Source: Gossypium raimondii (Eukaryota > Streptophyta > Magnoliopsida > Malvales > Malvaceae). Taken from it: a stretch of 64,000 nucleotides of DNA. Below the pieces are notes generated by a model, which was not told where the DNA came from, ran no database searches, and was given only the letters and a program-made list of their open reading frames with translations. Location: the NCBI RefSeq assembly GCF_025698545.1, contig NC_068570.1:54579924-54643923 (forward strand), written 5' to 3'. The position numbers and the translations under genes were made by a program. Shown here piece by piece: positions 3,846-46,220 of this stretch. Numbering within the stretch: the stretch's first letter is position 1; every line of letters starts with the position of its first letter.

Positions 3846-4056
3846 GTATTTTTGAGAAGGAACATAGTAGTTTATTGTTGGAACTTGTGTTGGTTTTTTG
3901 GACAAGGAACAGTTCCTAGAGGGGAGGCGTTGGATTTGAGGTTGGAATTTTCTAGGTTTTATTTTGGGTTGTCAGTTTTTGAACTTGAAAGTGAAGAGCT
4001 TTGATAGTTCTGAAATTCGGGTTTCGGTTTTTTATTGCTTTGTGAAGCGTATCATC

Positions 4057-6219
4057 ATGGATCCGTCGTTGCAGGGGCTTTACAGTTCTGTTGATAGATT
4101 CAGAGTAAATGATGATACTTTGTTAGCGATATCGAGCCAGAACTTTAATAACGGGTTTAAGAATGAAACTTTTGCTGGTATTCCTCCTTTGCAACCTGCT
4201 ACGATTCCGATAAATTTGCGGCCTTCTGCAAGTGTGAACGAGCCCGAGGATTATGACTTTAGTGACTTAGTTCTTAAGTACATAAGTGAGATGTTAATGG
4301 AAGAAGATATGGAAGATAAGACCTGCATGTTTAAAGAGTCTTCAGCAGCCCTTCAAGCTGCCGAGAAATCATTTTATGAGGTTCTCGGAGAACAGTATCC
4401 ACCTTCTCTGGAACCCGAATTGAAATATCAAAACCATGAAAGCTCGAATGAACTTCATGGTCATAGTTGTTGCAGTTGTAGTAGTGCTGACGGTAACTTA
4501 CTCAATCTTCCGTCCAACTATGATTTAGGCATGCAAATGTCTTTAAACTACAGTTCTCAGGCCAATTCATCCCATAGTTCCGGGAACAGTGCTGGTAGTC
4601 TCGTAGATGGCTTTACAGATTCTCCGGTGAGTACTCCCCGGCTTCCTGAAATATTTGGTGATAGTGAGTCAGTCATTCAATTCAGAAAAGGGTTTGAGGA
4701 AGCAAGTAGGTTCCTTCCGAATCGTGGAAACTTGTTTGTCGATGTAGAGAGTGACGGACTGTTTCTCAAAGAGGTGAAGGAAGAGGCTAAAAGTGTGGTA
4801 GAGAAGGTGGAAAATGAGTTATTGCAGGACGGATCGAGGGGAAAGAAGAAGCCTTATCCCGAGGATGTGAATTTATACAACGGCAGGAGTAACAAGCAGT
4901 CGTTGGTTTATACTGAATCCACTGTAAGCCCGGAAATGTTTGATACAGTGTTACTGAATTGTCAAAGCGTAGCCGACCTTCAAAAAGTTTTGCAACACGA
5001 AACAAACAAGAATGTGCAACAGAACGGACAGTCAAAAGGACCTACAGGTGGGAAGGCACGTGCGAAGAAAGGTAAACGGAATGTGGTGGATTTGAGGACT
5101 CTGTTGACTCTTTGTGCACAAGCTGTTGCGACCGATGATCGGAGGAGTGCAAATGAGCTGCTGAAGCAAATCAGGCAGCATTCTTCGCCTATGGGTGATG
5201 GGATGCAACGGTTGGCCCACTATTTTGTCGATGGTCTAGAGGCACGCTTAGCTGGCTCCGGGACCCAGAGTTACAATCCTGTTGTCACGAGACCGACATC
5301 AGCTGCTAACATTTTGAAAGCTTACCATCTGTTTCTTGCTGCATGCCCTTTTAGGAAGCTCTCGAATTTCTTCTCAGATACGACGATAATGAATCTTGCG
5401 GAAAATGCAGCTAGGCTTCATATTATTGACTTCGGTATTCTATATGGCTTCCAATGGCCTTGTCTTATACGGCGTCTCTCATCTAGACCGGGGGGACCGC
5501 CTAAACTAAAGATCACAGGGATCGATCTTCCGCAACCTGGTTTCCGGCCAGCAGAAAGGGTTGAGGAGACAGGGCGTCGTCTTGCGAACTATGCTGAGAC
5601 TTTCAAAGTTCCGTTCGAGTTCGATGCAATTGCACAAAAATGGGACACCATTCAGATCGAGGACATAAAGATTGAAAGTGGTGAAGTGCTTATTGTAAAC
5701 TGCATTTACAGGCTTCGGAATCTGCTCGATGAGACTGTGGTTGTGGAGAGTCCGAGGAATAAAGTTCTGAACTTGATGAGGAAATTGCATCCCGATGTTT
5801 TCATACTAGGGATCGTGAACGGCGCCTACAGTGCTCCATTCTTTATTACGAGATTCAGGGAGGCTCTCTTCCACTATTCCACTTTATTCGATATGCTCGA
5901 GACTAATGTGCCCCGTGAAATTCCGGAACGGATGCTAATCGAGAGAGAGATATTTGGGTGGGAGGCAATGAATGTCATTGCATGCGAAGGTGCTGAAAGA
6001 ATCGAGAGGCCCGAGACATACAAGCAATGGCAGGTTCGGAATACAAGGGCCGGGTTCAGACAGTTGCCACTGGATAAGGAGATGATGAAGACGGCAAAGG
6101 AGAGAGTCAATACAAACTACCACAAGGACTTTGTAATCGACGAGGATAACCATTGGTTGCTTCAAGGGTGGAAGGGACGGATTGTTTATGCACACTCGTG
6201 TTGGGTGCCTGTCTCATAA
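4057..6219 (+). CDS. GRAS transcription factor, SCARECROW-LIKE 14/33 type (LISCL subfamily)
   Basis: Single-exon protein of 720 residues. I start at MDPSLQGLYSS (4057): the frame stays open 31 codons further upstream, but that part looks like leader and the MDP start fits the family. The acidic N-terminal half contains VLKYISEMLMEEDMEDK, a hallmark of the LISCL group. The GRAS domain runs from about residue 343 (VVDLRTLLTLCAQAV) to the end. It includes LHRI, the VHIID-type motif (LHIIDFGILYGFQWP, about residue 454), LHRII, PFYRE (NVPREIPERMLIEREIFG) and the terminal SAW motif (WLLQGWKGRIVYAHSCWVP). GRAS proteins are nuclear transcriptional regulators; Arabidopsis SCL14 works with TGA factors in xenobiotic-stress responses. 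That role is family knowledge, not shown here. Confidence 0.95.
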   Translation: MDPSLQGLYSSVDRFRVNDDTLLAISSQNFNNGFKNETFAGIPPLQPATIPINLRPSASVNEPEDYDFSDLVLKYISEMLMEEDMEDKTCMFKESSAALQAAEKSFYEVLGEQYPPSLEPELKYQNHESSNELHGHSCCSCSSADGNLLNLPSNYDLGMQMSLNYSSQANSSHSSGNSAGSLVDGFTDSPVSTPRLPEIFGDSESVIQFRKGFEEASRFLPNRGNLFVDVESDGLFLKEVKEEAKSVVEKVENELLQDGSRGKKKPYPEDVNLYNGRSNKQSLVYTESTVSPEMFDTVLLNCQSVADLQKVLQHETNKNVQQNGQSKGPTGGKARAKKGKRNVVDLRTLLTLCAQAVATDDRRSANELLKQIRQHSSPMGDGMQRLAHYFVDGLEARLAGSGTQSYNPVVTRPTSAANILKAYHLFLAACPFRKLSNFFSDTTIMNLAENAARLHIIDFGILYGFQWPCLIRRLSSRPGGPPKLKITGIDLPQPGFRPAERVEETGRRLANYAETFKVPFEFDAIAQKWDTIQIEDIKIESGEVLIVNCIYRLRNLLDETVVVESPRNKVLNLMRKLHPDVFILGIVNGAYSAPFFITRFREALFHYSTLFDMLETNVPREIPERMLIEREIFGWEAMNVIACEGAERIERPETYKQWQVRNTRAGFRQLPLDKEMMKTAKERVNTNYHKDFVIDEDNHWLLQGWKGRIVYAHSCWVPVS

Positions 6220-20377: not shown

Positions 20378-21694
20378 CTAGTTGTTGACCGGCAATATAC
20401 ACCTGATCTCTGCAAATCCAACCCTTGATTTCACCAAATCAAATTCCATCCACACATTTTGTTGATGATGATGGCCAATCACGAACGCTTCAATACCTAA
20501 TAGATCAGAGTTCCCAAATGTGAAGCAATACACTGAATCACTCCCCTTATTCAGCTCGGGTACTTGATATAATAGCCTCTCGCCCGATACGCTCATCTCG
20601 GCTCCTTGAAACATCAAACTAACTCGTGGTAAATCCGAAAAAATCGTACCGGGTGACTCGTCAACTTGGTAACATAAGTCCATTGGTTCTTGGAAAACAA
20701 AGTTCGGATCCTCAAAAACTCGTAAAACCTCTCTTGTTTGTTGCAAAAACTCGTTTCTTAACGAAGTATAAACCGGACCCATTAAGAAAGTAAATTGGGT
20801 GCCCGAATCAACCATTGTTTGACCCGCACCCGTGTGATCCGGTAAAAAAGCGGATCTTGGTAGGTCCAATATTTTGTTCCCAACTTTAATACCTTCTAAT
20901 TGCACCGTATATGCAACCCGATCAAAATATGGCAATGGATCGGATATTTGAATCAAAGGAGTATAATTTAACGTTTTAAGCCACGAGAATCTCGTATCGC
21001 CGAGAAGTAAAACACCAGACGAGTCAAAACCCGATATACAGTACGAGAATTTGGGAAAACCCATTTGACTCACGAATGATAAGGACCCACGGTTCATGCC
21101 CATTAACCCGGTTGCTTTCGAATCTTCATCTGAATTCGAGCTAAAACCTGAGTCCATACACCCGAATAAAAACCCGGGTCGGACGGAGGACCCGATTACA
21201 AAATTCTCATACGCGAGAGTTCCCTCAATTGAGGAAGCGTCGGCATAAGAGACAGCCACGTGGCACAGCTTATTATTCGGTTCGCAGGAAGCGGGTACGA
21301 GTAAGTCTCGGGTACGGGTTTTACAAATGGGTGAAGCGCAAGGGATGTGAATGTAAGACTTGGAAAGTTCAGGGGTAAAAACGGAATTTAAGTCGGGGGT
21401 TTTTTTGCAGTGAAGCCATGAGAGTTCACTCCCAGTGTCGAGGACCATAGTGACATTTTGTGGCGGCGAGCCGACGGATAAAGAAACTGTTAAAGTAACG
21501 TTATGGTGGAAGCCAAGCTTGTTGGTGGCGGCGGCGGAGGAAAGTTTAGAGTTACGGGCAAAGGTAAGTGGGGGTCGACCAAGGGTTGTTTTGAGAGGTA
21601 AAAAGAGTGTTGTTTGTTTGGAAGGAAAAGAAAATTTTTGATGGAAAACAAGGAGGAAAATTGTCAAATGAAGCAGAAAATGAAAAGAAGACAT
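20378..21694 (-). CDS. Pepsin-like aspartic protease, PCS1 type
   Basis: Intronless, 438 residues. The hydrophobic N-terminus (FHFLLHLTIFLLVF) is a probable signal peptide. The first catalytic motif is VLDTGSELSWL (Asp86) and the second MVDSGTQFTFL (Asp296). The flap region is VSYADASSIEGTLAYENF, and Cys pairs are spaced as in atypical plant A1B proteases. There is no plant-specific insert. DTGSELSWLHC and VDSGTQFTFLMGPVYTSLRNEF closely recall Arabidopsis PCS1 (PROMOTION OF CELL SURVIVAL 1), an ER-retained protease needed for gametophyte and embryo cell survival. Potential N-glycosylation sites occur at NVT. Whether this is the orthologue or a close homologue would need a tree. Confidence 0.92.
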   Translation of the reverse strand: MSSFHFLLHLTIFLLVFHQKFSFPSKQTTLFLPLKTTLGRPPLTFARNSKLSSAAATNKLGFHHNVTLTVSLSVGSPPQNVTMVLDTGSELSWLHCKKTPDLNSVFTPELSKSYIHIPCASPICKTRTRDLLVPASCEPNNKLCHVAVSYADASSIEGTLAYENFVIGSSVRPGFLFGCMDSGFSSNSDEDSKATGLMGMNRGSLSFVSQMGFPKFSYCISGFDSSGVLLLGDTRFSWLKTLNYTPLIQISDPLPYFDRVAYTVQLEGIKVGNKILDLPRSAFLPDHTGAGQTMVDSGTQFTFLMGPVYTSLRNEFLQQTREVLRVFEDPNFVFQEPMDLCYQVDESPGTIFSDLPRVSLMFQGAEMSVSGERLLYQVPELNKGSDSVYCFTFGNSDLLGIEAFVIGHHHQQNVWMEFDLVKSRVGFAEIRCILPVNN

Positions 21695-21797
21695 TGATTT
21701 AGTTTTGGGAAAAGAGTGCTTTGATCTTCGGTTTTGTTTTGTACGTAAAATGTAACTGTTGTTTGAAAGTTTTTTGAGTTTCGTTTAGCTTTGGTTC

Positions 21798-27280: not shown

Positions 27281-30200
27281 TCAGGTCATTCCTCGTTTGC
27301 CTTTGGTGGCGTTCCACAGGTTCAGTAAAAATTCAACACCCTCTTGCAGGCTTGCCCTTCTTCCTTCTCCATAGTTCCACAATTCAGAAGTTGCGTACCG
27401 TCCACTTGGATTGTATTCGTTTATTTCATTTATAACGGAAGTGACCGACTTATACACTTCATTGCCCATCTCATCCTTCAAATCTTTCAGCTTTTCATCT
27501 TCATTATCAATCACTTCCTGAACCAGCATTATCAAACTTTGAGCACACCATTTCGTACAGACAGAAAAGAAACTGAACAAGGAACAAGCAAGATGGGTTT
27601 CACAAGAAAACACCTAACAATACAGTCCGGAAAGGTTTTATGATTATGAAAGTTTTTATGTTAGGCAGGCTTCTGCCGCAATCTAATTCATTTTTCTACA
27701 ACAGAGGAAGAGTTATATTTGCTCCGACTCTTAGTATTTCTTAAAGCACCCTATCTAACACCTATGTCTGAAGCATATCGAGACACGGGTACAGAGAAAT
27801 AACCCTAAAAGAATCCTCCAACTACATAGGAAAACATAGAAAATTTTGAAAATACCGATGTCAGACACATATCCATAGACACTCTTGAGTCCGAGTAGCA
27901 TAAGAAGAGAACAACAGAACTTCAGAGCTACCATGAAGTAATAGGACTCTGGCAATTGTATCCCTAGTCATGTTCAGTTCTATAAAGGATCCATACCTAG
28001 GATCAAAGCAGTAGGACATATATACATGACATCTACGTTGTACCAGTGGTAAAGTTGAGAAAGGGAAAGGGGTGAATTTGCAACACAAATTTAATGGGAG
28101 CCAAGACCTAAAGACCTGATATTCTTCTCCCTCGAGTTTAATTCGTTTAAAAGGATGCCAGTTTGGATCCTTCAGATATTCCTCCCACAATGAGCACAGT
28201 TCCACAGCTCTCTCCTCGGCTAGTTCCTCATTATACCTTCTCTTCATTGCTTCAAGGAACGGTTTATTGTCAAGTTCTCCCATTCTCTTGACACCGATAT
28301 TTGCACAACTTGATATTTCTTTCAATCCCTACAAAGTGAATGGATTAGTACTTCCTGACTAGCAAGAGTGACGAGCCATAAAAGGGTGAAGCAGAATTTT
28401 AAGAAATATATGATAAGCACTACAAAACAGTAGTAAAGTAACCATATATGAAAATCTTCTTAAGCCTTAGAAGCTTGTAATGAGGTCAAATAGCTGTACA
28501 TGAAACTCAAGGAATAATCTTAATCGGCCCTGACTGACGTTTCATTTCATAAAAGGCAGGGAATCAGAACTTTCATATTCCAGGAAAAAACCATTTATAC
28601 GATTAAAAACCTGTGCTTCATCCTCTTTCTGTTGTATCCTTTAGTTTTTAGGAAAAGCATTCAAATAGAATGAAAAAGAGAAACACCAAGAGAAAATAGT
28701 AAACCTCTGCATTACTATCCATTGGACATCAATTTCTTAGGCTTAATTCTGTTTTTCACAATACCATCAAATAATTCATGATTAAGCAAGCTTATCATAT
28801 AATGCAACACAAATCATAGTTCCAATATCCTACATCTGAAAAATATATTGTTTTAAGATCTTAGAAGACTTTCAAATGTTCATGCAGTAAAGTTCAAGTG
28901 TCTCAGCGCAAGCATTTTAAAAGGAAAAAAGAAAAAGAACTCACATTAATCAATTCTTTGCGAGCTTCCTGCAGCTCATTGTTGCTCTTACGTTCGCTTA
29001 CAATAAGAGTTTGGTTCAATGCTTCTAAATCTTCAAGCTCTCTCTCCTTTTCTCTCAACTCCTTAAAACTTGCCTCTATGATTGTCAGAACTATGTCATC
29101 ATCTTCGTCTCCCAGTTCTCTAATTACGTTCATTGAGCCTCTCAGTTGCTCAATTTCCAGTTCTAATGCTTGCTTTTGATCTAATTGTTTCTCCAGTTGA
29201 ATTATCCTATTGTGAAGTTCCTCCTTCTGCCTCTGGAAAATTGATGGTCTAGTCATGTCATCAATTCTCAGCATTCTAAAACCGACAAGGAAGTAGCGAG
29301 GTATTAAAATAAAAAAAGGGCTCGAATGACAAACAAACAAACCTTCTGATCTTCAGCCAATTGCATTAAATTTTCATCAGCCCTTTTTTGCTCCAAAGCA
29401 GCCAACCGTAATGCACTATTTTGAACAACATTCTGGAAGAAGAAATATGTTAGCATCTATATTTTCCAGTCCTGAGCATGCAATTAAAGTGGTCATATGA
29501 ACTAACTACGAGACGAAAGTTTCACCAAAAACAATTTCACATAAAACTTAGAAGGTGAACACACAAAAGTGCAAATGAAGAATGAAGCATGGTACCTCTT
29601 CAAGCTCCTCAGCCAACTTTTTTCTTTCTCCTTCAATCAGTGCCTCTCGCTTTTCAAGTTCAACTTCGCGCAATTCCAGATCTTTTCTATGAGATTCTAG
29701 CTGTGACTTCACTTTTTCATGGTCACTAAAAACCTTCTGGTAGTGTAGCCTAGCACTTTGTTGAGTCTTATTAATCTCTGTGAACAGAGGCAAAATAAGT
29801 TGAACCTTTGAGACAACAGTGGTACCAGGGAGCACTTCTAAATATAAAAGTTAATGCTCGACAGTATTGTACAAAAATAGTAATGACATGTACAAGACCT
29901 GATGCAAGCTACCATCTGCGAATGAAATTGAACGGTCAAAAACAGAATAAAACCAAGGATCACGGATGCATATAATGTATATATTTTTATTAATAAAAGT
30001 AGTTTCATAATAAAACTTAAACTGCAAGACAATAGCTAAAACACACCTTTGTTATATGCTTGAAGAAGGTTATCTTTTTCTTCCATTAAAACCTTGAGTG
30101 ACTCGGAAGTTACGGAACACATTGCTTCCATCTCTTTTAGGTGTTTGTTTTTAGTCTCGAGGATATTTGTCAAATATGATACAAGTCTATCTTGTTTCCT

Positions 30201-31214
30201 AGCTTCTTCCTCCATGAGCTTGGAAATGGTCTTAATGTCACTAGTCTTGCGTAAATGTTCTCCAATAATACTGCTTGACTTGTGGTCATCAGCACGGGCG
30301 ATCCAAGCATAAAGACCATACTTAACATCATTATTGGCACCCCAGTCCTTTTTCCCACGATGGTCTGCCTCATAAGCATTCTCAAATGACAAGGCATTGT
30401 GTAGCCCTGACCAGTCTTTATGGAATTCCACGACAGCAATTCCTGAATGATCACAGTTATTCCAAAGTGGGCGAACTCTTATGGGGTTGAACCCTCTCCT
30501 GATCAATTCATCCCTCAACTTGGATCCACTTTCCCCTACAGTTCGTCCATCCTCTGACTTTCGAGTAGGAATATTAACCACAATTCCGGTCCATGGCCAA
30601 ACAATTTTCTCATCATGGTCACAACCACTAAGAGGATCCTCTTGAGCTGCAGGTTTCAATGAACTAACCAAAGGCACAAGACCCTTTTCCAAATACTTAG
30701 CCAAAGCCAGGTGATTGGCTTTCATTATTGGTGTTCTTCTTGCAGAACTACTATTTCCCACACCAGAAGCATGCTGGACGAGGTCTAAATATCGGTAAAT
30801 TTTCTTCTCAGGACAATAGGGGCACGTATAAGTTTCATCTGAAGCTTTGACAATGTGCTTCCCATTCTCATTATGGTCACAACCACTAAGAGGATCCTCC
30901 TGAGTCACAGGTTTCAATGAACTAACCAAAGGCGCAAGATCCTTTTCCAAATACTTTGACAAAGCCAAGTGATTGGCTTTCACTATTGGTGTTCTTCTTG
31001 CAGAACTACTATTTGCCACAGCAGAAGCATGCTGGACAAGATCCATGTATCGGTAATTTGGCTTTTTCTTCTGAGGACAAAAGGGGCACGAATAAGTTTC
31101 ACCTGAAACTTTGACAATGTACTTCCCATTCCTTAATTTTTCATAAGATCTATCTACATACATTCCCATTTCAGATTCAGTTATATTCGAACCATCTATC
31201 GAGCTGATATCCAT
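27281..31214 (-). CDS. FDM/IDN2-like RNA-directed DNA methylation factor with doubled zf-XS
   Basis: Six coding exons on the minus strand (31214-30047, 29777-29596, 29432-29343, 29232-28945, 28328-28116, 27517-27281) give 725 residues. Domains in order: zf-XS 1 (Cys43, Cys46, His62), zf-XS 2 (Cys131, Cys134, His148), XS RNA-binding domain (about 203-315, starting KIVWPWTGIVVNIP), long coiled coil (about 330-585), and XH domain (KRMGELDNKPFLEAMKRRY to the end). XS/XH proteins of the FDM/IDN2 group bind RNA duplexes and pair through coiled coils in Pol V-linked DNA methylation. The start is ATG at 31214 (MDISS, matching the paralogue). The second zf-XS is an in-frame internal duplication. Most of the leader intron is replaced by the truncated copy upstream. 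The leader may come from 33101. Confidence 0.93.
30606..31130 (-). repeat. In-frame tandem duplication encoding two zf-XS units
   Basis: Two adjacent units (31130-30867 and 30866-30606, 88 and 87 codons), each running from NGK(Y/H)IVK through the CxxC-H finger to EDPLSGCDH(N/D)E. Both lie within one exon. The paralogue at 41-45 kb and the truncated copy each have a single unit. Confidence 0.92.
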
Positions 31215-31426
31215 TGGCAAGGAAACCTAAAAGGTAACAAGACAGAAAATCAAACTACACCCAATAGAAAACTATGCACTACTTCATTATAGGTTTGAAC
31301 AACTAACAAACCAATTAAATTACAAAATTTTAAAGATATCTCGCCTTCAAACAGAAGCCATGCACATTATCTAGCAGATAATTCGAAAATATGGAGATAT
31401 TTTTTAATTCAATAGCTTATAAAACT

Positions 31427-32308
31427 TCAATGGAGCAAGATATGATTAATTACGTTGAAGCATGGACATTTCTGGACGGCAGTGTACAAGTCTATCTTGT
31501 TTTTAGTCCCGGTGATATTTGTCAAATATGATACAAGTCTATCTTGTTTCCTGGCTTCTTCCTCCATGAGCTTGGGGATGGTCTTAAGGTCACGAGTCTG
31601 GCGTAAATGTTCTCCAATAATACTACTTGACTTGTAGTCATCAGCACGGGCAACCCAAGCATAAAGACCATACTTAACCTCAGTATTAGCACTCCAATCC
31701 TTTTTCCCATGGTGATCTGCCTTGTAAGCATTTTCAAATGACAAGGCATGATGTAGCCCCTGCCAGTCTTTTTGGAATTCCACGACAGCAGTCCCCGAAT
31801 GACCATGGTAATTCCGGAGTGGGTGAACTGTTATGGGGTTGAACCCTCTCCTGATCAACTCATCCTTCAACTTCGATCCACTTTTTCCTACAGATTGCCC
31901 ATTTTCTGACTTTTGAATCGGAATATTAACCACAATTCCAGTCCATGGCCAAACAATTTTCTCGTCATCGTCATGACCACTAGGGGTATCCTCTTGAGCT
32001 GAAAGTTTTGATGAACTAACCACAGGCACATGATTTTTTTTCAAGTACTTCGCCAAAGCTCGGTGAGAGGCTTTCACTATTGGTCTTCTTTTTGCGGAAC
32101 TACTATCTCCCACACCAGAAGCATGCTGAAGAAGATCCTCATATCGGTAATACTGCTTTTTCTTCGGGGGACAATAAGGGCAAATATAAGTTTTGTCCGA
32201 AACTTTAACAATGCATCTTCCTTTCTTTAATGTTTCATAACATCTATCTTCATACTTTCCCATTTCAGATTCAGTTATACCCGAATCATCTCCTGAGCTG
32301 ATAACCGT
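31427..32308 (-). pseudogene. Truncated FDM/IDN2 copy (zf-XS plus XS only)
   Basis: Homologous to exon 1 of both full genes: one zf-XS (CPYC finger) and an XS domain as far as RKQDRLVSYLTNI. It then departs into an unrelated tail (TAVQKCPCFNVINHILLH) and a stop at 31427. The usual ATG has become ACG at 32308 (the frame reads RTVISSGDDS). The first in-frame ATG is at 32263, which would still leave 278 residues with both domains. The splice donor, coiled coil and XH exons are missing. The acceptor before the exon (CTTCTAG, exon from 32320) is intact. It is probably a pseudogene, but a short XS protein is not excluded because the frame is otherwise open. Confidence 0.8.
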
Positions 32309-33100
32309 TCTCACGGAAACCTAGAAGATAGCGACAAAACAAACATCAAACTACACTCAACAGAAAACCATACTATTCCTTATAGGTCTGAACAATTAAT
32401 AAGTCAACCAAATTACAGAATTTTAAGATAATTCTCCTTCAAACAGAAACCATGCACACTAAAGCAAAATAATTAATTCAATTATATAACCTTTTTAACA
32501 ATAGGGTATTAACCAAACTAAAACAAGGTACAATTATACACAAAGTACATTTTCCAAAATAAGCAACTGTTTATATACCCGGGTTGAACACATACCCGAC
32601 ACTCACACTCGAGGCCAAGTAACATAGAAGCAAATCCAAATACTATGATTTTAATTTGAATAGTTAGAATTAGTGTTGGATGTTAATAATTCGCTATTTT
32701 TCTATCATTAGGCAAAGTTAAATATAAAAATACAAGCAGAATTAAAATAAAATAAAAAAACCCGCTGCATTGCAGTATCTAAACCAAATAAAGTCCTTTA
32801 CTTTCTTCTTCAACTACTTCTCCCAGGAACCAAACAAAGGCAGAAAGTAAACAATTACAAGAAAACAAATGCATGCAATGGTTTAGATTTAAAACAAAAA
32901 TTGCAGGAATCAAAAGATGAATAACAAGAGTAGAACAGCTACAATATCTAAATGAAAAAAAAAGGGAGAGAAAGGAATTACTGAGTCCATAAAATTTTCA
33001 CACTGAAAATGCAACTTATTGGCAAAACAAAAGTAAAGATTTTCATGAATAAATTGAAGTAAAAAAGAAATGAAGAAGAAGATTAGAATCGGAGTTTTAC

Positions 33101-33175
33101 CTTCACAAATTAGAGGTTCGAATTTGAGGCTTTTGAGGTTCTCCGAAGACCTCAAATTTTGCGAAGAAATTATTA
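33101..33175 (-). other. 5' UTR exon upstream of the truncated and full FDM copies
   Basis: On the minus strand a leader ends ...TTTGTGAAG followed by donor GTAAAA at 33100. It is homologous to the leader exon of the other FDM gene (ends ...TTGTGAAG, donor GTAAAC, at 46143). The first acceptor downstream is that of the truncated copy (32320) and the next that of the full gene (31226). The upstream limit is approximate. Confidence 0.65.
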
Positions 33176-33360
33176 AAGTAATTAATTATTTGTTCATTGT
33201 AACGAATGATTTTTGACTCAAAATTGAGAAAGTAGAAATCAAACCCGCTCGACCCAACCAGAAGACATTTATGAATTTTAATTTGGGTCGACTTCACTCT
33301 ATTCGAATTAAATTTTAAATTTTAAATATTAAAATAATAATACTAATACCAATATATTTT

Positions 33361-33810
33361 GGGTAAACCATAAAAATAGTCACTTTTGTTCACCTCAGAT
33401 TACATTTTAATCATTTATGTTTGAAATGTTATATTTTAGTCACTTACATTATCGTTTTATTACGAAATGATCACTCTACCATTAAGTTTCATTACCTCCC
33501 TAACAGCGGTCCTACATGGCAGTCCAAATGAGTTTTAAATGCCAACTTAGATGTCCTACGTGGCAATCCAAATTAATTTTATTTAATTAAAAATCTATTT
33601 TCATCCGAGCATCTGGATATCCAAGTTGGCATTTAAAACTCATTTGGACTGCCACGTAGGACCGATGTTAAGGAGGTAACGGAACTTAACGATAGAGTGA
33701 CCACTTCGTAACAAAACGATAACATAAGTGACTAAACCGTAACATTTCAAACATAATTGATTAAAATGTAATCTAAGACAAACAAAAGTCACTATTTTTG
33801 TAGTTTATCC
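33361..33810. mobile_element. Foldback MITE, Mutator-like (450 bp)
   Basis: Arms of roughly 190 bp are inverted copies: left GGGTAAACCATAAAAATAGT, right ACTATTTTTGTAGTTTATCC. Inner matches include CATTTGGACTGCCA and its complement. Flanking 9-mers are ATATATTTT and ACATATTTT (8 of 9), as expected of a Mutator-type target duplication. Non-coding. Confidence 0.8.
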
Positions 33811-33952
33811 ACATATTTTTATTATTTTTGAAACAATAAAATTAGCTCTTTGAGTCGGCCCGAAAATTCCTTTATCATGGTTTGATGTGGCTATGTACAA
33901 TGCCCATTAATATCTTTATTTATATTTCATCAAATAATATTAGGGTAAACTA

Positions 33953-41210: not shown

Positions 41211-44200
41211 TCAGGTCATTCCTCGTCTGCGTTTAACGGTTTCCCACAGTTCCAGTAAGAATTCGACACCTTCTTTCAGGCTTGCCTTTCTTCCTTCTCT
41301 GTAGTTCCACAACTCGGAAATTACGTACCTTCCACTTGGATTGTATTCGTTTATTTCTTTTATGGCCAAAGTGACAGACTTGTATGCTTCATTGCCCATC
41401 TCAGCTTTCAAATCTCTTAACTTTTCGTCTTCATCATCAATCACTTCCTGAAGCAATTATCGAACTTTGAGCAAACCGTTTTTTTACCGACAAAAAAGCA
41501 GTGGAACAAAGAGCACGCTAGATGTGTTTCACAAGAAAAAAACATAATGATAACTTTTAAATTTATTTTCTAGCTGATTCAACATCGAGAACTGCATCCA
41601 GATATCCAATGAACAGAATGCATAATTGCATATGTAGAAAAACAGCCCTCTATGATGCCTATAACAAACAAAGATAACAATTATAGCCGGCTAACCTAAA
41701 AGGTAAGTGCGGGTAAGACTGGTGAATCTTGAAGTACATCATTGGACTGTTACAAGAGATTGCACCCAACTAAAGATTTACTCCTCTATCAGGAAATATA
41801 TTTATACACACATATATAAATACATAATACATACATAGCCGTAGCTATGATTAGTGGAACAATTAGAGGTAAAGGGTTTATCCAGTTCTATCTTTTACAA
41901 GTTTCCAAGGACAAACAAAAACCAATGAGTAATGCTGTCCTGAAATTGACATTTGTGATTATAAAATGTTTTGCACGAGGTAGGCTCCATGGAAATCTAA
42001 TAGTGTACATGTTTTTTACAATGGAGGAGGAAGAGAGCAATGCAACTTTAGAACTACCATGAACTAATCACACACACATATATATGACATCTTCATAGTA
42101 ACAGTGCTGAAGTTGAGAAAGGGGGGAAAAGGGGGACTGCAGCATAAATTTAAGGGGAGTCATGAAATACAGACCTGATACTCTTCTCCTCCCTCAAGTT
42201 TAATGCGTTTGAAAGGATGCCAGTCCGGATCCTTCAGATATTCCTCCCACAATGAGCACATTTCCGAAGCTCTCTCCTCAGCTAGTTCCTCATTATATCT
42301 TCTCTTCATTGCTTCAAGGAACGGTTTACCATCAAGTTCCCCCATTCTCTTAACGCCGATATTTGCACGCCTTGATATTTCTTTTAATCCCTACAAAGTG
42401 ATTGAATTAGCACTTCCTGAATAGAAAGTGTCATGAGCCATAAAGGCTGAAGCAGAGTTTTAAGAACTTATATGAAAAGCATGTTCGCAAATCAATTCGA
42501 CTGATAAACCTAACAATTCAGTAAAAAAAACAGTTGCAAAGCCTTAACCCATGTTTCATTTGACAGAACTGCAATATCTCGGGGGAAAGAAAAAAAAAAT
42601 GTACACAATCAACCAACTTGCTTTTGATCACCTGTGCTTCAGCTAATCTTTTTATCATATCCATTAGTTTTTAGTGAGGAAAAGGTGTTGAAATACAACC
42701 AATTAGCTAAAAACCATGCATTACTATCCAATGAGCCTGATTTCTTTGGCTTATTTCAGTTTTCCCAATACCATCATATAATTCATGATTAAGCGAGCTT
42801 ACCTTGTAAGGCAACAAATCATAATCTCAATATCACCATTGGAAAAATATATGTTCAAAGATACTAAAAGACTTTCAAGTCGACATCTGCTAACTAAAGT
42901 CTGCAGTAATGCACAAGGTTGAAAAGAAAACTCACATTAATCAATTCTTTGCGAGCATCCTGCAGCTCATCATTGCTCTTACGTTCGCTTACAATAAGAG
43001 TTTGGTTCAGTGCTTCTAAATCTTCAAGCTCTCCCTCCTTTTCTCTCAAATCCTTAAGACTCGCCTCTATCTTTTGCAATACTTCTTTATCATCTTCATC
43101 TCCCATGTGCCTAATTACATTCAACGAACCTCTCAGTTGCTCGATTTCCAGTTCTAATGCCTGTTTTTGGTCTAATTGTTTCTCCAGTTGAATTATCCTA
43201 TTGTGAAGTTCCTCCTTTTGCCTCTGGATAATTGGTGGTCCAATCATATAATAAGTTCTCAGCATTGTAAAACCGGAAAGGTAGTATTCTGGTAAAGAAA
43301 AAAAAAGGGCACGAATGATAAACAAAACCTTCTGATCTTCAGCCAATTTCATTACATTTTCATCAGCCCTTTTTTGCTCCAAAGCAGCCATTTGTAATGA
43401 ACTATTTTGAACAGCATTCTTGAAGAAGAAAAATGTTAGTTTTAGATTCTCCAGGAACTCTTTGATCAACATTCCTGAGTATACAACTAAAATGAAACAC
43501 ATCAAGATGCTGCAAGAGCAACCAAAGTTGATTTTATTCTTTTTATCGTTTTGCCTTCATGATAAAAGAAACTAATGGTAGGAAATCACCAATTCTAGAT
43601 TTTAGCTTGCAATGTAGGCACCTATGTTTACCCTTCAGAATATATGATTACATATTATTCAGGAGATTCATGATTTTGAGAATCAACGATTATCTCCACA
43701 ATTTGTGATAGACGAATTTCTATCAAGACTGTCAATAAGGAACAAAAATGTTGATTTCGGGACAACATTGTTGCAAAAGGAAAAACTCTACACCAGGATT
43801 ATGAGTTCCAATGGCATCAATTCCGAAGTGGTCATATGAACAGAATATTAAACAGTAGTTTCACCGAGAACACCTCAATATAAAACTTGAGGAGAACAAG
43901 CAAAAGTGAAAATGAAGAATGAAGCATAGCACCTGTTCAAGCTCCTCAGCTAACTTTTTTCTTTCAGTTTCATTGAGTGCCTCTCGCTTTTCAAGTTCAA
44001 CTCCACGCAATTCCAGTTCCTTTTTATGAGTTTCTAGCTGTGACTTAAGCTTTTCGTGGTCACTAGAAATCTTCTGGAAGTGTTCCCTTGCACTTAGTTG
44101 AATCTTTTTAATCTCTGTGAACAGTAGCAACATGAGTTTGATACCTTTGAGACTACAGTAGTACCCGAAAACAGTTTCAAACATTAAAGTTAATGGAACA

Positions 44201-45261
44201 CCACAGTATTGTATAAAAACAGTAATGACGTGTAACAGACTCGATGTAGGCTACCATCGGCAAACAGAACTGAACACTCAAAAACAGAATAAAACCAACA
44301 GATGAATGGAATGTGTGTATTATTACAACTTGATAAGAATTAAAAACACACCTTCATTATATGCTTGAAGAAGGTTTTCCTTTTCCTCCATTAAAACCTC
44401 AAGGGACTTGGAAGTTTCAGAACATATTGCTTCCAGTTCTTTTATGTGTTTGGTTTTAGTCTCGATGATATTTGTCAAATTTGATACAAGCCTATCTTGT
44501 TTCCTGGCTTCTTCCTCCATGAGCTCGGAAATGGTCTTAAGGTCACCAATCTTGCGTAAATGGTCTCCAATAATACCACTCGCATTGTAGTCATCAGCAC
44601 GGGCAACCCAAGCATAAAGACCATGCTTAACATCATCATTAGCACCCCAGTCCTTTTTCCCATGGTGATCTGCCTCGTAAGCCTTCTCAAACGACAAGGC
44701 ATTATGTAGCCCTGGCCAGCCTTTACGGAATTCCACAACAGCAGTCCCAGAATGACCACGGAAATTCCAAAGGGGGTGAACTCTTACGGGGTTGAACCCT
44801 CTCCTGATCAACTCATCCCTCAACTTGGATCCACTTTCTCCTACAGATCGCCCATCCGCGGACCTTCGAGTAGGAATATTAACCACAATTCCAGTACACG
44901 GCCAAACAATTTTCTCATCATGGTCACATCCACTAGGAGGATCCTCTTCAACAACAGGTTTTGGTGAACTAACCACAGGCACAAGATCTGTTTCCAAATA
45001 CCTCGCCAAAGCTAGGTGATTGGCTTTCACTCGTGGTTTTCTTTTTGCAGAACTACTATTTCCCACACCAGAAGCATGCTGAAGGAGATCCTTGTATCGG
45101 TACTTTTGCTTATTACTCTTGGGACAATACGGGCAAGTATAAGTTTCATCCGAAACCATGACCGTGTACTTCCCATTCTTTAGTTTTTCATATGATTTAT
45201 CTTCATACTCTTCCATTTCAGATTCACTTATATCCGAATCATCTCCTGAGCTGATATCCAT
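41211..45261 (-). CDS. FDM/IDN2-like RNA-directed DNA methylation factor
   Basis: Six coding exons (45261-44352, 44114-43933, 43418-43329, 43223-42936, 42390-42175, 41447-41211) give 640 residues. ATG at 45261 opens MDISSGDDSDISESEM. One zf-XS (CPYC...H) is followed by the XS domain (KIVWPCTGIVVNIPT...YGLYAWVARADDY), a coiled coil rich in Glu/Lys/Leu, and the XH domain (KRMGELDGKPFLEAMKRRY...SGRYVISELWNYREGRK). Exon sizes equal those of the gene at 27-31 kb except exon 1 (258 nt shorter, one zinc finger) and exon 5 (three nt longer). It is a tandem paralogue in the same orientation and presumably works in RNA-directed DNA methylation. Exon phases agree throughout, with no disabling change seen. 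Confidence 0.94.
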
Positions 45262-46142
45262 TCTCAAGGGAACCTAAAAGGTACAATAAAACAAAACATC
45301 AAACTACATCCAATAGCAAACCATAAACTTCCTTATAGGTCTGAATAATTTATAGGCCAATTAAATTACAAAAATGTAAACATAATTTCTCCTTCAAACA
45401 GAAGCCTCGAATATTATCTAGCTGATAATACGTAAATAATTAAAATGCTCAAGTACAATTTTGTCACTGCATTTCTTTTCCTGCCAGATACAGAAGTCAT
45501 ATGTTGCTCCGACTTTTTATTTTATTTTCTTGAAGTAGATATGATACTCTAAAAACTCTCCAAACATACAGAAAAAACTTAGGAAAAATAGAAGACGATC
45601 GAGCACATACCCATAATCCGCACTCACATTCGAGTCCAAGTAACATAGAAACAAATCGAAATACTACGATTTTAATTAGTGTTGCATGTTAATTATTTGC
45701 TAATTTTCAATCCATTGTTTCTCATTTTTCTATAGAAAACAAAATTACAAGAAAAAAGACGTCGCATTGCAGTATCTAACCAAACAAAATATTGTCCTTT
45801 CTTCTTCACCTACTTTTCCCAGGAACCAAACAACGCCAGAATGTTAAAATTTTATAAACAGAAAATGCATGCAAGGACCTAAACGATCATTTCCACTGCC
45901 CCCTCCCCCCATTCATGATCACAGTAACAAAAATGCAGGAGAAAAAAAATCAAAACAAGCAGCAGATCATTACAACTACAATATCTAAAATTCAAAAAAG
46001 ATAAAGAAACGATTTGACTGAAGTCAAAAAATTTTCACAGAGAAATGCAACTCTCATTAAAGCAAAAACAAGGATTTTCATGAAATAAATTGAAGAAGGA
46101 AACAAAATGAAGTAAAAAAAAATAAAAATTTTAACTGTTTAC

Positions 46143-46220
46143 CTTCACAAGATATGAGCTGCTTTGATTCTGAGAAATTTGAGCTTTCTCCCAAGAGCTC
46201 TGATTTTGTTAAGATTACAC
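46143..46220 (-). other. 5' UTR exon of the third FDM copy
   Basis: Leader ending TATCTTGTGAAG with donor GTAAAC at 46142. The acceptor CTTTTAG lies at about 45274-45280, with the exon from 45273. The leader intron is therefore about 0.87 kb. The upstream limit is approximate. Confidence 0.6.

Follow-up and report, generated by a model that had tools for sequence, protein, structure and literature searches.

The window analysed here, the whole stretch of 64,000 nt that was searched (G000:C6:54579924-54643923, in a genome of 750.8 Mb), holds three relatives of the IDN2/FDM family, all on the minus strand: a truncated copy (T), a complete gene (F) and a complete paralog (A). Exon models were built from homology and splice consensus, with F modelled by homology to A. 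Read along the minus strand, the T/F locus consists of a leader donor at 33101, T at 32320-31427, about 95 bp of filler sequence, about 174 bp of leader intron and finally F at 31226-27281. The leader exon is non-coding (33101..33185) and was recognised by alignment with the leader of A and by a shared donor block; its homology to A begins near 33167, and position 33185 is the bound used for the scan of upstream ATGs rather than a mapped start. The donor after 33101 reads AAG/GTAAAA, and the same block holds the donor of A at 46143.

From the leader, 780 bp of intron lead to the acceptor of T (32321..33100, by homology; 869 bp in A), and the upstream flank of T runs unbroken into this intron, as it does in A. 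The residual leader intron and acceptor of F occupy 31227..31400 (upper bound approximate), and their match to the leader intron of A extends only to about 31390-31400, so that roughly 170 bp of intron were kept. Alignments across the window and the genome thus confirmed what a first-pass annotation of this DNA had described, namely a truncated copy sitting between the full gene and its sole recognisable leader, with the leader and most of the leader intron belonging to the truncated copy and only about 170 bp of that intron left to the full gene. Within the window, the leader region matched a single further place at E <= 1e-3, which lies upstream of A, and the search of the window found none between T and F. 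A genome query with 33260-31226 returned seven matches from four candidates, and besides the query itself only the match at A covers the leader. The same geometry supports the further point that a transcript from the 33.1-kb leader would reach the acceptor at 32320 before the one at 31226. Absent from the annotation were paralog A, the loss of the start codon of T, and the fact that T is without the donor of the first coding exon.

Other elements of the window were also recorded. A high-copy, MITE-like foldback element with 212-nt arms that are 84% complementary was located by repeat search at 33345..33826, its end lying 244 bp upstream of the leader donor. The genome search scored 40 of 2,206 candidates; apart from the element, these were 39 copies of nearly full length, 85-88% identical to it and distributed over all 13 large contigs; the element could be a target of RNA-directed DNA methylation beside a gene of that pathway. 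Farther away, the plus strand carries a 759-codon open frame at 3940-6219 with a near full-length GRAS domain, and the minus strand a 468-codon open frame at 20378-21784 with TAXi_N, TAXi_C and aspartyl-protease matches.

F encodes 725 aa in six coding exons, from the ATG at 31214 to the stop at 27281, and is open throughout. Its first coding exon (30047..31226; alignment and Pfam) holds the ATG, two zf-XS stretches and XS, and the remaining exons (27281..29777, at 29777-29596, 29432-29343, 29232-28945, 28328-28116 and 27517-27281) cover the coiled-coil region and XH by homology to A. Both zf-XS stretches, XS and XH score over the Pfam cut-off. The second zf-XS derives from an in-frame internal tandem duplication of 258 bp (30607-31164; 88% identical over 267 bp), which by this identity appears younger than the splits among T, F and A. 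Proteins with several zf-XS make up about 2.8% of those surveyed, according to excerpts of PMC6631971.

Paralog A (41211..46143; homology and Pfam) encodes 640 aa with one zf-XS, XS and XH. It has a leader donor at 46143, an acceptor at 45273, an ATG at 45261, six coding exons and a stop at 41211, and is open throughout. Being complete and 13-14 kb away, A serves as a control and allows tests of the T/F arrangement. Its strongest DNA alignments are to T (85% over 958 bp) and to F (82% over 1,393 bp), and the three copies differ by about 14-16% in the shared exon. F and A each combine zf-XS, XS and XH in one protein, the Pfam domains of IDN2/FDM (XH/XS) genes, and a putative coiled-coil region between XS and XH is present and aligned in both. 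A single replacement in A (exon 44352-45261), W122C, places a Cys near the start of XS where T, F, the contig-4 copy described below and PDB 4e8u have Trp; the last is a distant relative, with the molecule labelled T8P19.180, which we take to be Arabidopsis IDN2.

The closest copy found outside the window lies on contig 4 (L009) and has the same acceptor and ATG; a leader search in this paralog gave only short matches, of which the best (E 7e-4) spans 25 bp. Contig 5 carries an XS fragment (L012:2004-3073) at a distance of about 12 kb from a longer relative (L011). One of the two stretches in which this fragment matches contains two stops, and its best alignment shows 77% identity across 914 bp. 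Judging from this case in the same genome, the T/F locus is not alone in having a fragment next to a longer copy. Clustering of the family also occurs elsewhere, as one contig of Hypericum has four XH/XS genes in about 20 kb (PMC6631971). The excerpts of that survey describe no XH/XS gene with a truncated sibling in its leader intron, and a literature search found, by title, no study of cotton FDM or IDN2 genes.

T (31427..32320) was delimited by its open reading frame, Pfam and alignment. It is one open frame from the acceptor at 32320 to a stop at 31427, of 297 codons plus the stop, with one zf-XS and one XS, both far over the Pfam cut-off. Pfam found no XH in T, which ends just after XS and before the coiled-coil and XH regions. 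The donor that closes the first coding exon in F and A is absent. The tail of T is open as well, but this was dropped as evidence of coding, as by our own arithmetic 23 open codons occur by chance about one third of the time. Additionally, alignment with A, F and the contig-4 paralog, all of which have the start ATG, shows ACG in its place in T (32306..32308). The context of the ACG is AGAACGG, with a purine at -3 and G at +4, and a near-cognate start in such a context can allow weak initiation. The first ATG of T is out of frame and opens a 4-codon upstream ORF, and the next in-frame ATG would give a protein of 278 aa.

T-F identity stops at about 31497, and between this end of the homology and the residual intron of F lies the junction filler (31401..31496, bounds approximate). 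The filler contains the stop of T and a TATAAG at 31421. It is single copy in the genome, where the search at the sensitivity used returned one match, the filler itself, and no other source; within the window and the contig-4 locus only short words and an 18-nt repeat were found. The first 12 nt of the filler repeat sequence 47 nt upstream, the 18-mer AAACAAGATAGACTTGTA being present twice, at 31549 and 47 nt downstream. Templated end joining leaves insertions that repeat nearby sequence, and the filler resembles such an insertion. The layout would be compatible with two origins, either a tandem duplication of about 1 kb in one gene or a deletion that fused two full tandem genes.

Constraint on the three copies was estimated with a codon model run by our own script over three trees, the best of which is called the best tree here. 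On this tree, omega was 0.65-0.68 on the T branch versus 0.31 for the background, and the other trees gave 0.67-0.71 versus 0.32. The difference between T and the background is nominally significant (LRT p 0.017-0.021), while neither omega_T=1 (p 0.15-0.20) nor omega_T=0.4 was rejected; the likelihood profile of omega_T is broad, at about 0.38-1.2, and still peaks near 0.65 when the start codon is omitted. For F, omega in the exon shared with T was 0.36-0.37 on the best tree. In the 3' part the F-A ratio was 0.27 by NG86 versus 0.52 by YN00, so that constraint there is less certain.

Unique amino-acid changes number 24-25 in T, 12-16 in F and 12-13 in A, and unique silent codon changes 7-9, 11-12 and 6-7, respectively. 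By BLOSUM62, radical changes (second set) account for 14/24 in T, 4/12 in F and 4/13 in A. Neither the radical excess of T (p 0.088) nor its excess of replacement over silent changes (p 0.23) is significant alone. In a by-eye count, 11 of the 13 T-unique changes in the XS region fall at sites where 4e8u holds the ancestral residue, and the T-unique changes at sites conserved in 4e8u include a Trp as well as the Cys and His that directly precede the XS domain.

The frame of T is nevertheless intact. Under neutrality along the full branch, 5.2-5.4 stops would be expected in its 271 codons versus none observed; the probability of zero stops is 0.0115 for neutrality over the whole branch, 0.084 for half of it and 0.27 for a quarter. 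The intron next to T shows four gaps and 28 mismatches between T and F, and three and 27 between T and A. With indels included, at an assumed frameshift share of 0.75 and an assumed lowest indel ratio of 0.05, neutrality beyond about 17-31% of the T branch is unlikely at the 5% level. The stops and frameshifts expected of a pseudogene neutral since the T/F split were thus not found, and T as a long-dead pseudogene was rejected on the lack of stops, a case made stronger by the indels.

Pairwise dS (NG86) was 0.31-0.32 for T-F, 0.23 for T-A and 0.28 for F-A. By this measure T is no nearer to F than to A, yet the tree groups T with F, a grouping favoured by 6.5-7.3 log units overall and by about 3-4 per segment. 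The internal branch measures 0.05-0.06 substitutions per codon versus 0.24-0.30 for the T and F branches, which places the T/F split only slightly after the split from A. Gene conversion was rejected as the main story, since only in the last three windows of the comparison (91-93%) does T/F identity rank highest and the tree groups T with F. An open frame without the expected stops implies that T was full length until fairly recently, or that the fragment has been under some selection. The intact frame argues for a decay that began late or for weak selection that persists, and relaxed constraint with recent decay is favoured over continuing weak selection. Most likely, T remained full length along most of its branch, was truncated recently in comparison with the T/F split, and has decayed since.

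Splice and transcript signals were then considered with scoring matrices of frequencies for Arabidopsis-like sites, which are untrained and poorly discriminating. On this scale the acceptors score 6.3 (T), 7.8 (F) and 7.6 (A), and the AGs at 32947, 32436 and 32387, which were not taken as sites, score 7.5-8.4, above the acceptor of T. The locus would have a shared first exon, with donor 33101 facing acceptors 32320 and 31226, each followed by a related body. The first-pass annotation had held that skipping T gives the full protein. In keeping with this, an mRNA joining leader and F would be free of upstream ATGs provided that its start lies at or below 33185, and the 725 aa of F are open; the junction 33101-31226 is itself a prediction. 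The companion claim, that use of the acceptor of T yields a short zf-XS/XS protein, stands as far as the frame is open and is without coiled coil and XH; the lost ATG, the probable removal of the RNA and the relaxed constraint speak against it.

In the region 31200-31500, none of AATAAA, AATAAT, ATAAAA and TATAAA was found. Looser A-rich words near the end of T are AATGAA at 31288, AAAAAT at 31404 and TTAAAA at 31407 and 31333. Plant poly(A) signals are loose, and such words may allow a short T mRNA. On read-through, 1,380 nt would separate the stop of T at 31427 from the next predicted junction, the F donor at 30047, and RNAs in which a premature stop precedes a later junction by more than about 50 nt are subject to nonsense-mediated decay (NMD). 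Since T has no F-type donor and no AATAAA precedes F, inclusion of T would likely give an NMD target, which is the most likely fate of a T-included RNA as read from these signals.

Altogether, these observations are best accommodated, at a probability of a little under one half (about 0.48), by T being a broken sibling in the leader intron of F, with F made by skipping T and inclusion of T mostly wasteful. T would be what remains of the 5' part of a tandem FDM-type gene, stranded in this intron when an end-joining rearrangement fused the end of its XS exon to the leader intron of F about 170 bp before the acceptor. The F mRNA would arise by splicing leader 33101 to 31226 over T. Use of the acceptor of T would lead to read-through and the early stop at 31427, in an RNA mostly removed by NMD, so that T would lower the output of F rather than yield a working short protein. 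The splice-choice mechanism proposed in the first-pass annotation is plausible in its geometry and unproven in its biology; the lost start codon and the relaxed constraint weaken the functional part of the proposal, a useful short protein.

A possible account, though distinctly less probable, is that transcription of F starts separately, within the filler, the residual intron or the exon of T, which would make T irrelevant to the expression of F. The TATAAG at 31421 is in line with this, as is a single-copy filler that could hold promoter sequence. Additionally, proximal acceptors often win in splice-site competition, so skipping of T is not guaranteed. TATA-like words, however, arise by chance in A/T-rich DNA, an unspliced transcript beginning near 31395 would have three ATGs ahead of that of F, and F retains a plausible acceptor that such a start would not need. 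That the F locus is silent, or that the layout is an assembly fault, is improbable. The disagreement between the NG86 and YN00 ratios leaves some room for a silent F, but its open frame and its low omega in the exon shared with T argue against it, and the divergence among T, F and A makes collapsed or duplicated reads an unlikely cause of the layout. Least probable is T as a cassette exon whose donor joins 31226 in frame to give a longer F with an extra zf-XS or XS. The frame of F is open from its acceptor, and 5 of the 16 GT sites scoring >2 before the stop of T are in frame, at 32306 (5.3), 32021 (7.9), 31931 (5.4), 31679 (7.1) and 31454 (4.4). One third is expected by chance, however, and the matrix is untrained; a significant case for a T-F fusion was therefore rejected. 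All in-frame sites other than 31454 fall, by eye, in coding sequence common to F and A, and 31454, the last exon base of a weak candidate donor in the tail of T (AAC/GTAATT), scores low; the weakest predicted donors of F and A score 4.5-4.8.

It is also unlikely, if slightly less so than a silent locus or an assembly fault, that the locus is a regulated splice switch, in which use of 32320 would yield a working short zf-XS/XS protein able to interfere with FDM function. The open frame of T, its well-scoring zf-XS and XS profiles, the shortage of stops relative to neutrality and an ACG in a context where near-cognate starts can work would all suit a switch. Weighing against it are the lost start, the exposed upstream ORF, the relaxed omega, the changes at conserved sites and a T without an evident 3' end. 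The domain content of T bears on the same question. In excerpts of PMC3342958, the coiled coil of Arabidopsis IDN2 is essential for homodimerisation and XH for binding its paralogs; an IDN2 fragment comprising XS and the coiled coil was enough to bind RNA, and the paralogs IDP1 and IDP2 showed no binding of double-stranded RNA. As T ends before the coiled coil and XH, interference through dimers is unlikely, and the dominant-negative role suggested earlier for its product is doubtful and, by this analogy, weakly founded.

The precedent for such a switch is unc-60 of C. elegans (ADF/cofilin), which shows that splicing from a common first exon can select between paralogs and which is, by analogy, the closest proven parallel to the T/F layout. 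There, as in T/F, one first exon is followed by two related bodies in order, and expression of the distal body requires that the proximal one be skipped, its first acceptor being held back (excerpts of PMC3469465). The two loci differ in that unc-60A is a complete exon set encoding a working protein, whereas T is truncated, startless and under relaxed constraint, although its intact frame points the other way; the splicing is proven for unc-60 and predicted for T/F. In the cholinergic locus, VAChT lies inside the first intron of ChAT and shares its first exon (PMC3469465), but its products are unrelated and functional, whereas one of the two T/F bodies is a broken paralog. By title, the literature search brought up no plant case in which splicing from a shared first exon selects between paralogs. 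T also has a likeness to a poison exon, in that its early stop precedes a later predicted junction and its inclusion would lower the amount of functional mRNA. Poison exons of the classic type are conserved and end in a donor; T is without the donor that ends the exon of F.

For annotation the locus is a hazard, as gene models may join T and F or assign them incorrect first exons. Should T be a decaying remnant without effect on F, the locus would represent ordinary turnover of a plant gene family. If F depends on skipping T, the locus would be a natural case of a tandem rearrangement that forces splicing over a broken sibling, in a gene of the DNA-methylation pathway.
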